A stretch of 23,009 bases of DNA from a virus. The DNA is taken from positions 1-23,009 of the IMG/VR virus record IMGVR_UViG_3300030012_002579. The stretch is one strand, 5' to 3'. A model generated the notes under the pieces. The model was given only the letters and a program-made list of their open reading frames with translations, was not told the origin of the DNA and did no database searches. The translations under genes were made by a program, and so were the position numbers. This document shows positions 7,312 to 21,349 of this stretch, one piece after another. Within the stretch, counting starts at the first letter, position 1; every line of letters begins with the position of its first letter.

Positions 7312-7629
7312 ATGAAAGTAGTATTTGATCAAGACACATACGTGGCCTCTACTTGGGGGCACGCAGATTCTTTTGAAGCCGGTGTGCCTAAAGCTGTAGG
7401 AAAAGATTTTGGAGTCCTATGTTTACAACAAGGGGCTAGAGAAGTAGATGGCGAAGAAGAAGTAGCTGCTCCTGTTGTAGAAGAAACTGCAACAGAAGAA
7501 ACTTCAGTAGACTTAGAAAGCATGACTAAAGTAGAGCTAGAAGAGTATGGTCGCACTATAGGTATAGAACTAGATAGGCGTAAGACTAAAGCGGCTTTAA
7601 TAGAGGAACTAAAAGCTACAATCAATTAA
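7312..7629 (+). CDS. Small head-region protein with SAP/HeH-like C-terminus
   Basis: This 105-residue acidic protein directly follows the capsid terminator. GGGAG at 7301-7305 is its ribosome site. Residues 1-45 are unrecognised; about 46-68 is a Glu/Ala/Val-rich linker. Residues 71-104 (MTKVELEEYGRTIGIELDRRKTKAALIEEL) look like a SAP or HeH/LEM-type helix-extension-helix motif, seen in nucleic-acid-binding proteins and in small phage proteins encoded beside capsid genes. It could be a minor head or decoration protein, or could contact packaged DNA. The domain call is by pattern only. Confidence 0.6.
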   Translation: MKVVFDQDTYVASTWGHADSFEAGVPKAVGKDFGVLCLQQGAREVDGEEEVAAPVVEETATEETSVDLESMTKVELEEYGRTIGIELDRRKTKAALIEELKATIN

Positions 7630-15800: not shown

Positions 15801-18588
15801 AGGTAGTACTACAAGACGAACAGATCCTGGTAAGTTTGTAGATGTATTCCCATCTTTAGCACAAAGGCTAGGAGACCCCCAGTTTGTCAGTAAGTTGTCT
15901 TTTATAGCTAAGGATAGATTTAAACTCAAGAAAAGAACTAGGATATTTACATCAGACGTTAACTTTGACGAGGTACTTCCTTTAACAAAAAGTACTTTAC
16001 CCAATATAAACTATATAAAAGCTCAACAAAATATTCTGAATGATTCTACAGACCGAGCTAGGTTTATATCATTAGGCAAAGAAAACATAATTCTAGTTAA
16101 AATAGGTGCTAATCCTGGTTCTGCTGAACAGGGAGCAGCGATGATAAGCATTGCTCATGAATTTGGTCACGCTGTATTTGATCAAGAGGTAACTAATACT
16201 TTAGAAACAGAAATTGGTAAGAAAGTATATGCAGCATTTGAAGCTGAAAGAGATGCCCCTAACGCTCCTGAAACGTATCAAGAAGGTAATCCTCATGCGT
16301 ATGAAGAATGGTATGCCGATAAAGTAGGGGGATTTTTATTAGCAGAGCTTAGGAATGAAAAAGTCAAAGCAAAGAACGGGGTTGAGTCTTATTTTAAACG
16401 TATTGCTAAACAGATAGCAGATGCCTTTAGAAGTCTTAGTTCTGAAATAAGTAAAAGATTTTCAGTTAACCCTGATTTTACAGATTATGCTCAAAATGTA
16501 GTTAGAGTATATAAAGATGGGTTCGTAGACTTTACCCGTAACAAAGGCTCATATCAGCAACGACGTTACTCAAGGGCTATGGTGGATAATTTTGTCCCTA
16601 AAACTTTCGAAAGTGCAGGTCAAAGGAGCTTATTTAGATCTCTTAAAAAGGCCGCTATAGAGATATTGGAAGACCCTTCAACTATGGCTCCTCTTTACCT
16701 AAAAAAAGTATTCTATCCAGCTGAAAACTTTTTAAAATCTTTAGGTAAAGGTGTAAAGACAGTCGAAGATATAGGTAAAGCGCTGGCTGCAATGTTTTAC
16801 ACTGCTAGTCAATCAGAAGGAGGCACAGGTCTTTTAACAGCTAACATCGTAAAAGCTAATGCAGAAGTTAATAAACTCAGCGCTATATTAGAGCTAGATG
16901 ATGTATCTCAAATAACTCCTGAAGCTGAAGCTATTTTGCTCGAAGCTGAAAACGATAAGATTCCTACCGAACAGCTAGGCGAAAAAGCTAAACAAGTAAG
17001 AGAGTGGCTTTCTGATTTTTATGATAGAGAAAATTTAGGTGCTATTTTTAATAATAAAAAAATAGAGAACTATTTCCCTAGAATGATAGCTATTGCTGAA
17101 ATTACTGAAAACTCCGCTCTACAGGACTCGTTAGTTAATTTAATTGTCCAAAACAACCCTAATACTACAGAGCAAGTAGCTAGAGAAGTGGTACAAGGGC
17201 TAATAGCAGAGCCAGCAAATGCTTTACTAGAGGGTAACGAAACTGACGGCGAAGGTAGATTTAATTTAGGGTTGGCTAAAGAAAGAGCAGAGTTGTTTAA
17301 AAACATAGATACGAAAGATTTAAGGGATGCACAGCTATTAGAAGAACCAGCAGTAGCGGTTCGTAAGTATCTAGCTAACAGTATAAAACGTTCAGAGTTC
17401 AACAAACGTGGCGGGGCTAAAAGAGTACAAGAGCTTGTAGACCAGCTACCAGAAAACGAACAAGGACATGCAGTTGATGCTATAGATGCCATAATGGGTA
17501 GGGTCAATCCAAACATGGGTGCTACTTTTAGGTTTATTAATAGTTGGGGATTAGTTGCAAACATTACAACGCTTCTGGCATTCGCTGTGTTTGCTTCTTT
17601 ACCTGACTTTGCAGGGCCTATTCTTAGATCAAAAGAGTTTAGTGCGTTTGGTAATTTTGGTAGAGAACTGCAATCTTATTTCCAAAATAGTGAAGAAGCT
17701 TCTAGGTTCGCAAAAGATATAGGCGTGGTATCTACAGACGCTATAAACACTATGTATATCAATGCTGGTGAGCTAGATTTTATGAGTAAGAACGCTAAAA
17801 ATGTGTCTGAAAAGTTTTTTAAGTACACAGGCTTAGAGTGGTATACAAGGTTTACAAGAATATTTGCTGCAGGTATGGGACGTAGATTTTTAATGGAACA
17901 TCAAATGAGAGCAGACCAAGGTGATGTAAGGTCGCAACGTTTCTTAAGAGAGCTCAATGTTACACCAGCGCAGATAAAAGCTTGGAACAACTCACAGAAT
18001 GTAGAAGCACATCCTGAAGTTAAGTTAGCTTTAGCTCAGTTTGTAGACGAGTCTATCGTTAGACCAAATGCTGCTGAAAGACCAGTATGGGCTTCTGATC
18101 CTAGGCTAGCTTTAGTTTGGCAGCTTAAGTCTTTCTTTTACGCATACGGTAAAAACATAGTTGGTGGTGTAATGCGAGAGTCTAGCAGTAGGGTAAAAGA
18201 AGGTGCAGGCATGAACTCTGCGACTCTACCGCTGTTACTAGCCGCTAGTACATTACTGCCATTAAGTATGTTAGGACTAGACCTTAGAGAAAGGTTTAAG
18301 GTAGGATTAGCATGGGCGCTACCGGGTGTAAGCCCAGAAGATAAGAACTACAGAAAGTCTCTAGATATGGAGTGGGATAAGTATAGTTTTGAGATCATAG
18401 ATAGGTCAGGAGTGCTTGGCCCGTGGGCTTTAGCAGCTCCATTATTTATGGAAAGTAAACGATATGGAGACCCTTTTTGGGTTAGTCCACTTGGGCCTTC
18501 AGTTGAAAAAGGATATGATTTATTAACAGGCGATTTAGATTTCGGTGATATAACTCCTATATACAATCAAATAGGAGGATTTGATTAA
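12892..18588 (+). CDS. Very large internal virion protein with HEXXH zinc-peptidase domain
   Basis: This 1898-residue protein starts at GTG 12892, chosen because GAGGG (12881-12885) lies six bases upstream and it clears the previous stop. ATG 12808 in the same frame would overlap the upstream gene by 83 bases. A KDTFxSE motif appears twice near the N-terminus (residues 5-11 and 19-25). Gly/Ala-rich hydrophobic segments at about 108-152, 232-257 and 321-346 look membrane-active. HEFGH at 1089-1093 with EEWYAD at 1138-1143 has the zincin pattern (two His plus a downstream Glu). Further hydrophobic stretches lie near 1550-1578 and 1776-1800. Size and position match T7 gp16, but no lytic transglycosylase domain was recognised, so the peptidase may take its place in crossing the envelope. 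A polyvalent-protein relationship is possible. Confidence 0.75.
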   Translation: MAVQKDTFFSEMGKTAIPKDTFQSEQASSRAELTDPIQVFKQGVVSGGYNLAANLEYFKGIGNSIMEDQDALEKNLYAAERLEQQAGIAMADVQQFDDFLENPTALGFINQVSSATGQFAPSAIASVASAVSGAGAGVAVAGLTGVTKGLVQNVAKKEIQKAYKKKMKKQPLTKDEEDLLAGAYDSYKKLRLGPAAKGGAVAGAVAQEYPQGAGIAFANFAEEDMTDPIRAFQSLGIGVPFAAVGVGAEALVFKGLTGILKKQGSGPIHKRILGAIGQSAGRTGAVEGITEGIQEELSVQQKFAIDDDYTQAQARLDRAQAVFAGFFGGVGIGAAGGTVAGTLNAATGDRLVDRARENVTAGYKKEQYNAFLEERYGIDPEDGLGQVATEPKAWIKAQIEAMLDPNTGKDSVFIDRASIGIFNEVRRENPELAARLDQIPNHSAADTGELSAGLLFSTDGTKVNKFKEVTDEFLYDGTKQDEVLVDILGYEHGRLPDADRVVEVRDAANNVVWYQSTTLEKEADVKAKAKELFPESNIVSTDIDDHLSRRNQAPQARGSGPFELDDEGEIVQDDDITEEEEQEALAAFRFETPGVSEEPGIRSANQNARLAVEGIQKGEGWSRGASRDTQLQTDAAAYFPAFPQYADRMNSELNRGFYSDALLRTYLRVSESAPNNIYVIQAIDPEADNVRYEIKRLNTTDGQVDIGLGIPTAVTEAIETEKDRVFKGGKPTGWKIQPPGINPQTKQPYKMVPVYMPALTILGRRINTRLGLASPESTELQGALEGFNTIFVELGKQKYKLDYPGKEGVGPNRTPLPFERSNATVYRSRGRDFSYKQLQPGDRSVTPEARRGDVGGTDQTQNIRNLRNLINGVIGELVQGNRRGGVTSERPLSVELQEKVNEIDTLEELETLVEEEINPNIPDPQQRIMTSTMFEGAEFSEFEQSTGDFVEATPEQQANEEYKAATFDELGSTTRRTDPGKFVDVFPSLAQRLGDPQFVSKLSFIAKDRFKLKKRTRIFTSDVNFDEVLPLTKSTLPNINYIKAQQNILNDSTDRARFISLGKENIILVKIGANPGSAEQGAAMISIAHEFGHAVFDQEVTNTLETEIGKKVYAAFEAERDAPNAPETYQEGNPHAYEEWYADKVGGFLLAELRNEKVKAKNGVESYFKRIAKQIADAFRSLSSEISKRFSVNPDFTDYAQNVVRVYKDGFVDFTRNKGSYQQRRYSRAMVDNFVPKTFESAGQRSLFRSLKKAAIEILEDPSTMAPLYLKKVFYPAENFLKSLGKGVKTVEDIGKALAAMFYTASQSEGGTGLLTANIVKANAEVNKLSAILELDDVSQITPEAEAILLEAENDKIPTEQLGEKAKQVREWLSDFYDRENLGAIFNNKKIENYFPRMIAIAEITENSALQDSLVNLIVQNNPNTTEQVAREVVQGLIAEPANALLEGNETDGEGRFNLGLAKERAELFKNIDTKDLRDAQLLEEPAVAVRKYLANSIKRSEFNKRGGAKRVQELVDQLPENEQGHAVDAIDAIMGRVNPNMGATFRFINSWGLVANITTLLAFAVFASLPDFAGPILRSKEFSAFGNFGRELQSYFQNSEEASRFAKDIGVVSTDAINTMYINAGELDFMSKNAKNVSEKFFKYTGLEWYTRFTRIFAAGMGRRFLMEHQMRADQGDVRSQRFLRELNVTPAQIKAWNNSQNVEAHPEVKLALAQFVDESIVRPNAAERPVWASDPRLALVWQLKSFFYAYGKNIVGGVMRESSSRVKEGAGMNSATLPLLLAASTLLPLSMLGLDLRERFKVGLAWALPGVSPEDKNYRKSLDMEWDKYSFEIIDRSGVLGPWALAAPLFMESKRYGDPFWVSPLGPSVEKGYDLLTGDLDFGDITPIYNQIGGFD
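18554..18577 (+). other. Hairpin covering a Shine-Dalgarno-like sequence
   Basis: CTCCTAT (18554-18560) and ATAGGAG (18571-18577) are exact complements around a ten-base loop, inside the last codons of the 1898-residue gene. The 3' arm contains AGGAGG, but no plausible gene starts at the right distance from it; the next ATG is 30 bases away. No T-tract follows, so it is not a normal terminator. It may have no function. Confidence 0.3.
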
Positions 18589-19273: not shown

Positions 19274-21349
19274 ATGGCCTTCAAAGTCATTGTTGACTCC
19301 AACAATCTACGTGTAGTTATAGAAACGGACTCATTGAGTCCTATCTCTACTTTTCAAAATTTTAAATCTGTTCTTACGTTTACCGATTTAAAAGGTGTAT
19401 TACAATTCACAGATCTGCAAGCTGCAAATGTATTCGTAGATGCAGATACCAAAAATCTCTATTTCTCAGCTCAATATAATTCACCAAACGCAGAAAGCTT
19501 TTCGTTTACTGACTCAGAGGTTCTATCTGTTGGTTTAGCTAAGACAGATACTCCAACTGTAACCGAAGAGTTGGCTAAAGCTGTGGGGTTAAGTGTATCT
19601 GATACCCCTACTATATCTGAAGAACTTAGCAAAGCTGTAGATTTTGTTAGGACACTTGCTGACACTCCTTCGGTGTCAGATGCAGTAGCCTCTGTAGATA
19701 GTGGATTAGGAAAAACAGACTCTACGACTGTAACTGAGGAAGTTGCAAAGTTATTTGCTAGACCAGCCTCTGATACTTTATCTGTATCAGAAGCTTTAAC
19801 TCAAAGTGTAGGCTTAGGTAAAAGTGACACAGCTTCTTTAGCGGATGCTCCAGCGTTATCCACAGGTTTATCCAAAGAAGATACTTCTACAGTAACGGAA
19901 CAGATAGCTAAACTAGTAAGTTTTCCACAATCTGATACTACAAGCATCTCTGAGTCTGATGCTAAAAACGTAGGTAAAGCCGTTGATGATTCTTCTGGTG
20001 TACCTACAACTAAAACCTACACAGTTACTGTGGCTACCGGAACTAATGTTTACGGATCGGGTAATAAGTTTTATATAGATGGTTTACCTAGTCCTGGATT
20101 GATTCTAAATGAAAGTATTACATACACTTTTGACCAGTCAGATTCAAGTAACTCAGGCCACCCTTTTAGGTTTTCTACTACAGCAAACGGCACTCACAAC
20201 TCAGGTAGTGCATACACTACAGATGTAACTGTAAATGGTACGCCTGGATCTGCAGGGGCTTATACTAGAATTGTAATAAGTTCTTCTACTCCTGACTTAC
20301 ATTACTACTGTGCTATACATAGTGGCATGGGGGCTGAAACCTCTATGCAAGATACTGGAGACACTACGTTTGCAGTAACTGTAGCGACTGGTGTAAACAA
20401 CCATGGCTCTGGCAATAAATACTATATAGATGGAGTAATTACTCCTATAGTGCACCTGTTAGCAGGTAATACATATACTTTTGATCAGTCAGATTCTAGT
20501 AACTCAAACCATCCTTTTAGGTTTAGTGAAACCTCAAATGGTAGCCATGCTGGTGGTAGTCAATATACTACTGGTGTAACTACAAACGGTACTCCTGGGT
20601 CTTCAGGTGCGTTTACTAGCCTACAAGTTACTAATGCTACTGCTACTACATTGTTCTACTACTGTACTAATCACAGTGGCATGGGTGGAGAAGTAAACTC
20701 ATCTCTTGCAGGTACTGGAGACCTTAGTGTAACAGAGTCATTAGCTAGAGTAGTAAGCTTTGTTAGGGCTTTCTCTGACGCAGCAGCTTTAGACGATACA
20801 GCTAGCGCTAGTGATGATTTAGCTACACAGTCAGATTTAGTAAAAAACAATGTCCTAACCGTAAGCGAATCACAAGCTTTTTCAGTATCTAAACCTGGTA
20901 TAGCAGATACTTCTAGTATTTCTGAAGCAATCGCTCTTTTGTTAGCTTCAGCTCCTAGTGACAGCCTTTCTATGTCAGACGGTGTACCTGTTTTTAATGT
21001 TTCTAAAGCACTTACTGACTCTGTATCCATAGCAGAATCAATTAATGTAGCTGGGCAAAATATTTTCTCAGATACTGTAAGTATTACTGAATCGACTAAT
21101 CTTAATTCAGCGGATGGGGTACAAGACTCTACTTCTATAGCTGATACACTTGTTCATAGTTTTGTAATTACTATACCACGAGATGCAACAGCCGTTGAAG
21201 CTGTAAGCATTGCAGAAAGTTTGGTAGATAGTTTTGGCAAATCCCTCACGGATAGTGCTACAATATCTGAATCAGTAAGTATTCTGTTTGTACCCGGTGG
21301 GGGAAGTATACTGAATACTGCTGCTTTAAATACATTTGTATTAAATTAG
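19274..21349 (+). CDS. Repetitive appendage protein with two cupredoxin-like domains
   Basis: This 691-residue protein is probably a fibre or surface appendage. GGAGGT (19262-19267) precedes ATG 19274. Residues 1-75 are a beta-rich N-terminus that may attach to the virion. Residues about 76-235 and 480-680 are irregular repeats of roughly 23-30 residues built on DT-x-[ST]-[VI]-[ST]-E or SVSE patterns. Between them are two tandem cupredoxin-like domains (about 249-357 and 366-475), each with a conserved HPFRF strand and YYC-x2-H-SGMG loop. Their ligand sets are H296, C346, H349, M352 and H413, C464, H467, M470, the type-1 copper pattern with amicyanin-like C-x2-H-x2-M spacing. Similar domains occur in marine phage and bacterial proteins, to my knowledge. 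No signal peptide is present, as expected for a virion protein. Confidence 0.7.
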   Translation: MAFKVIVDSNNLRVVIETDSLSPISTFQNFKSVLTFTDLKGVLQFTDLQAANVFVDADTKNLYFSAQYNSPNAESFSFTDSEVLSVGLAKTDTPTVTEELAKAVGLSVSDTPTISEELSKAVDFVRTLADTPSVSDAVASVDSGLGKTDSTTVTEEVAKLFARPASDTLSVSEALTQSVGLGKSDTASLADAPALSTGLSKEDTSTVTEQIAKLVSFPQSDTTSISESDAKNVGKAVDDSSGVPTTKTYTVTVATGTNVYGSGNKFYIDGLPSPGLILNESITYTFDQSDSSNSGHPFRFSTTANGTHNSGSAYTTDVTVNGTPGSAGAYTRIVISSSTPDLHYYCAIHSGMGAETSMQDTGDTTFAVTVATGVNNHGSGNKYYIDGVITPIVHLLAGNTYTFDQSDSSNSNHPFRFSETSNGSHAGGSQYTTGVTTNGTPGSSGAFTSLQVTNATATTLFYYCTNHSGMGGEVNSSLAGTGDLSVTESLARVVSFVRAFSDAAALDDTASASDDLATQSDLVKNNVLTVSESQAFSVSKPGIADTSSISEAIALLLASAPSDSLSMSDGVPVFNVSKALTDSVSIAESINVAGQNIFSDTVSITESTNLNSADGVQDSTSIADTLVHSFVITIPRDATAVEAVSIAESLVDSFGKSLTDSATISESVSILFVPGGGSILNTAALNTFVLN
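20018..20690 (+). repeat. Tandem duplication encoding the two cupredoxin-like domains
   Basis: Two copies about 351-354 bases apart share long near-identical stretches at DNA level, for example around 20120-20170 and 20471-20521, where differences are few and mainly third-position. The copies differ by one codon in spacing between the first His and the Cys. This points to an intragenic duplication, or to recombination between related fibre genes, that kept the metal-ligand residues. Confidence 0.7.

Follow-up and report, generated by a model that had tools for sequence, protein, structure and literature searches.

The fibre gene and its two domains

This locus raises the question of whether a phage adhesion protein can carry a copper site. 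Within the window (the whole stretch of DNA analysed here, 23,009 bases from an IMG/VR virus record), a tail-fibre-like gene encodes two adjacent domains, D1 and D2, which a first-pass annotation had likened to copper proteins. The genes run in the order terminase, portal, major capsid, structural proteins, a 1926-aa internal virion-like protein and a fibre cluster. The major capsid protein matches PF13252 (1.8e-41) and is nearest to its counterparts in the Pseudomonas phages KPP25 and phiR18 (55%); the source DNA is a fragment of a KPP25-like podovirus. The fibre gene gives PHROGs tail fibre matches to phrog_30742 (5e-42) and phrog_693 (4e-23), and its neighbours encode BppU_N-like, DUF6321 and tail-fibre products. 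The domains themselves match phrog_30742, phrog_693 and phrog_27200, two of the three being tail fibre families, and a copper function is not noted in the PHROGs descriptions of these three.

Low-complexity repeats of the SDTxSxSE type, about 18-24 aa long, flank the pair of domains on both sides, and the repeat number varies among close relatives (L001-L003). Elsewhere in the window we observed a HEFGH (HExxH) metalloprotease-like motif within the internal virion-like protein (16156-16170) and a small endonuclease VII-like gene (7312-7629; phrog_3281, 4.6e-8) with the capsid gene on one side and the next structural gene on the other.

Table 1. Coordinates of the fibre gene, its two domains and their putative copper ligands within the window.
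Feature	Position	Strand	Basis
Tail-fibre-like virion protein, 691 aa, containing both domains	19274..21349	+	PHROGs tail fibre families
Cupredoxin-like domain D1 (aa 247-356)	20012..20341	+	AF2 pLDDT 94.4, pTM 0.88
Cupredoxin-like domain D2 (aa 365-473)	20366..20692	+	Tandem AF2 model pLDDT 88.5, pTM 0.84
D1 putative ligand His296	20159..20161	+	Two residues ahead of central strand (DSSP), as in cupredoxins
D1 putative ligand loop Cys346-x2-His349-x2-Met352	20309..20329	+	Cys346 (20309-20311) ends penultimate strand (DSSP)
D2 putative ligand His413	20510..20512	+	Sequence; DSSP of tandem model
D2 putative ligand loop Cys464-x2-His467-x2-Met470	20663..20683	+	Sequence; DSSP of tandem model

As had been annotated, each domain holds a His followed by Cys-x2-His-x2-Met with the spacing of amicyanin (Table 1), and both contain the motifs (G/N)HPFRF and YYCxxHSGMG. 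The two ligand cysteines are the only ones in the fibre protein. When this protein was shuffled, one C..H..M arrangement arose in 0.02% of the shuffles and two arose in 0 of 200,000. Its histidines lie at positions 296, 308, 343, 349, 377, 394, 413, 425, 467 and 628, and no His-x-His pair of the kind that marks HxH iron-binding tail fibres is present in the 691 residues.

The first-pass annotation had further reasoned that duplicated domains acting only as scaffolds would be expected to lose their ligands. Both copies do keep all four, but D1 and D2 are 62% identical, and four given residues would all be common to both by chance in about 15% of cases. Retention in two copies is therefore a weak argument when taken alone, and we rejected it as a proof of function by itself; the real test has to come from the family.

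Fold and relationship to copper proteins

The AF2 model of D1, built with 70 relatives, is a confident beta-sandwich of about nine strands, and the D1-D2 tandem was modelled as well (scores in Table 1). In both domains the first His is predicted two residues before a central strand, the Cys ends the penultimate strand, and the second His and the Met lie in the loop preceding the last strand. Cupredoxins are laid out in this manner, with a His before a central strand, a Cys closing the penultimate strand and a His and a Met in the final loop. Foldseek placed CuNIR, McoA and rusticyanin at the top for single D1 (best E 1.7e-3; TM-scores 0.4-0.56), and for the tandem 50/50 among the PDB matches listed were multicopper oxidases or CuNIR (best E 3.4e-5; TM about 0.3). 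The moderate scores indicate that the domain is a divergent branch of the cupredoxin fold. One match to the tandem, 2vmj, is a nitrite reductase into which the loop CTPHPFM has been engineered, with the spacing Cys-x2-His-x2-Met. An Ig-like identity was rejected, antibody matches being weak and ranking below copper proteins. The eight-stranded Greek-key beta-sandwich of the cupredoxin superfamily is thus found by AF2 and by PDB neighbours that are mostly cupredoxins, at moderate TM-scores, and His, Cys and His (plus an axial Met, Gln or other residue) occupy the canonical order and topological places. The copper-protein-like fold proposed at first is borne out by the models and their structural neighbours alike.

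In Pfam searches no copper family reached its cut-off for the domain and D1 had no PF00127 match at all; PF00127 (Copper-bind) was nevertheless the family that matched most often among the 70 relatives, below threshold in 7 of them (best E 0.016). NCBIfam searches gave nothing useful for the domain, with no model reaching its cut-off, and PDB sequence searches with D1 or with the family profile returned chance matches only, mostly antibodies. Homology emerged from profile-profile comparison, in which the ligand columns aligned: with HHalign the domain family scored 90.7% against plastocyanin-type proteins and 96.5% against a set of small PF00127-type proteins that carry an HPF motif and come from Prochlorococcus, Bacteroidetes and marine archaeal genomes. 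This HPF-type set itself matches solved plastocyanin (1.4e-6) and amicyanin (7e-4), and D1 alone scored 81.8% against it. Two neighbouring proteins of the window, used as controls, scored 3.4% and 0.9%. The signal is concentrated in the ligand loop, such that the truncated family profile falls to 54.6% and the truncated single sequence of D1 gives no signal against the HPF-type set (3.6%). With ligands aligned and controls low, the comparison supports homology to the plastocyanin family.

D1 and D2 resemble the plastocyanin/azurin family PF00127 (amicyanin in the case of the loop) in the Greek-key beta-sandwich, in the ligand order His...Cys-x2-His-x2-Met and in its amicyanin spacing, but differ in lying below the Pfam cut-off, in a longer conserved segment between the first His and the Cys, and in forming part of a virion protein. 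Their first His is followed by Pro, whereas plastocyanins and amicyanin usually have His-Asn; this His-Pro resembles the HPxHxH motif of oxidases. The type-1 domains of multicopper oxidases and copper nitrite reductases (CuNIR) are the best fold matches, but D1 and D2 are without the type-2/type-3 histidines, the TM-scores are low and the tandem domains are arranged differently. Within the cupredoxin superfamily, the D1/D2 family forms a divergent branch that has no name so far and serves as a virion module.

Our search of the literature on copper or cupredoxin domains in virions, tails, cyanophages and pelagiphages, with most subscription journals outside its coverage, returned no description of such a virion domain. 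The closest published idea is that of iron in HxH tail fibres, as in T4 gp37 and Alteromonas phage R22Y, for which a Trojan-horse role has been put forward (PMC11705849). These fibres likewise carry a metal site, but they bind iron via paired histidines, whereas D1 and D2 have a predicted Cys-containing site inside one beta-sandwich (PMC11705849 for the former). Metal in phage tails has so far been discussed for iron, and the site predicted here is a different one with a textbook ligand set.

Spread of the domain and fate of its ligands

Relatives were found in 142 phage records, almost all of them linked to marine picocyanobacteria, SAR11 or OM43 or to marine samples, and IMG/VR gave at least 600 matches in several scans. 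Annotated carriers include pelagiphage tail fibres, cyanophage virion proteins and the T4-like gp7 and gp9 baseplate proteins of S-CAM22, so that the domain occurs in annotated virion proteins of cultured phages. The annotated presence of this domain type in other marine phage proteins proved correct, for many virion proteins and hundreds of marine phage sequences. On bacterial chromosomes the domain lies inside giant surface-type proteins, for example in Photobacterium and Arcticimaribacter; part of the MAG contigs could be of phage origin.

We located the domain with a model that ends before the Cys loop, so the ligands were not used as bait (sampling took the best 80 per scan, which leans to relatives of the query, and some loci were fetched by loop-containing patterns). 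Of 419 unique copies found in this ligand-blind search, 416 keep H+C+H: 409 are HCHM, four are HCH with a Met and a loop longer by one residue, two are HCHH and one is HCHQ. The remaining three are without the Cys and second His. The axial Met is the only ligand that varies singly, to Gln or His. The change to His (CxxHxxH) was seen in two related viral copies (L208, L226) and that to Gln in L104. Cys is nearly confined to the ligand position, with 421 Cys across the 419 domain spans. The three exceptional copies, L016 (NSNL), L126 (NSAM) and L147 (HNNY), each lose three or four ligands jointly and retain the structural residues; those of L016 and L126 each adjoin an intact copy within the same protein.

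A larger loss is found in the T4-GC345 structural protein of Kyanoviridae (cyanomyoviruses), which has the same domain without the site in 11/11 sampled sequences (L499, L506-L515; 215 records by similarity). Here the structural columns G10, Y24, F26, D30, G51, T55, G62 and G65 are all at 100%, while Cys, His and Met of the loop are at 0% and the distant His at 27%, replaced by Leu, Arg or Glu. In the same 11 sequences Val58 has become Lys, and the GTH histidine Trp, Tyr or Phe. The tree is poorly resolved; in it the ligandless T4-GC345 copies form one clade with support of 100, and five changes are needed overall. One copy of gp7 and one of an S-RIM44 protein have lost ligands as well. D1 and D2 fall into different clades, each common to three relatives, which means that their duplication predates the split of these relatives and that both copies have kept the site since.

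With relatedness ignored, the Cys and second-His loss sets would be identical by chance with a probability of 8e-8, and the losses of the far His would fall inside that set with a probability of 3e-5. Because ligands are lost jointly while structural columns stay, the aligned copies show that the four ligands, where kept, are selected as one unit. Frequent loss in homologues had been named at the outset as grounds for abandoning the copper idea. Such loss does occur, throughout the sampled members of the distant T4-GC345 clade and in single copies; in window-type homologues the four ligands are near-invariant. The T4-GC345 proteins indicate that the fold can do without the site and that metal stabilisation is not essential everywhere; at the same time, the joint loss of several ligands from a fold that is kept strengthens the metal-site reading for copies with the full set.

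Readings of the predicted site

Judging from the ligand pattern and the models, copper binding by the domains is likely. We favour, at a probability of about 0.5, the reading that D1 and D2 are virion cupredoxin modules with predicted type-1 copper sites, probably loaded outside the host and acting as metal-stapled fibre modules. Each domain would form a type-1 (blue) copper site with His, Cys and His in plane, an axial Met and a short amicyanin-type loop. Copper would be taken up after lysis, probably once the protein has left the reducing cytoplasm of the host. The site may then act like a staple of metal and make an exposed adhesion or stalk module stiffer, a task closed to a disulphide when the protein folds in the cytoplasm. 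Since the fold persists where the site has been lost, the site must contribute something (seawater stability or binding) for which only some virion proteins have a need.

It is conceivable, if unlikely, that the site instead works in host contact: its copper, or else the exposed loop surrounding the second His, would bind a host surface protein or compete for a copper-uptake receptor. The domains sit in fibre genes and occur also in bacterial surface-type proteins, and there is precedent in the Trojan-horse proposal for HxH iron sites in fibres (PMC11705849). However, two baseplate wedge proteins, gp7 and gp9, also contain the module, and neither is a receptor-binding tip. To our knowledge, a type-1 site with its four ligands leaves no open coordination position that a receptor ligand could occupy, and this too argues against host contact.

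We consider it improbable that the four residues coordinate zinc or some other soft metal in place of type-1 copper. Cupredoxin sites do accept Zn, Co, Hg and Ag in vitro, but D1 and D2 agree with type-1 copper in their ligands, spacing and fold, and the axial changes that we found go to Gln or His, of which Gln is known to serve as an axial ligand in blue copper proteins. A passive beta-sandwich spacer, with the ligand residues conserved for packing only, would account for the persistence of the ligandless sister clade and for G62, G65 and Y24 columns conserved as strongly as the ligands; we give this reading little credence since the ligands are lost jointly while those three columns stay and Cys is otherwise nearly absent from the domain. 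Least likely is a redox-active or electron-transfer fibre domain, for instance a sensor of host surface redox state, because, although type-1 sites are electron-transfer sites in well-studied cupredoxins, their geometry changes little on reduction, no recognisable redox partner is visible in the 23,009-nt window, and redox or sensing roles of D1 and D2 find no support.

Other marine phage fibres, baseplate proteins and giant bacterial surface proteins make use of the same module. More broadly, we find it fairly probable that type-1 copper centres sit on the tail fibres and baseplates of a very common class of marine phage virions, making the particles extracellular copper ligands, and that a sister clade shed the site and kept the module. 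Phages of Prochlorococcus, Synechococcus, SAR11 and OM43 share the predicted site, and if copper is bound the virion would act as a carrier of copper in an environment both poor in the metal and sensitive to it. Clades with and without the site make a natural test pair for the contribution of a metal site to a virion protein, and since cultured carriers exist, among them pelagiphage HTVC028P and Synechococcus phage S-TIM5, the copper question is directly testable.

Several carriers differ in how the domain is set. In marine Bacteroidetes and Photobacterium a single domain lies between repeats of giant surface-type proteins with open frames of more than 2,700 aa (L093, L096, L145, L152). The C-terminal domain of the T4-like baseplate protein gp9 of S-CAM22 (L496 1629-2846) keeps HPF...CxxHxxM, and gp7 of the same phage (L496 2855-6979) has one intact and one ligandless copy adjoining a YHYH domain. 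A protein of Prochlorococcus phage MED4-213 (L500 5606-5908) combines a window-type copy with a second cupredoxin-like stretch, IHPFYI...CGVHGGM, that lies just below the PF00127 cut-off.
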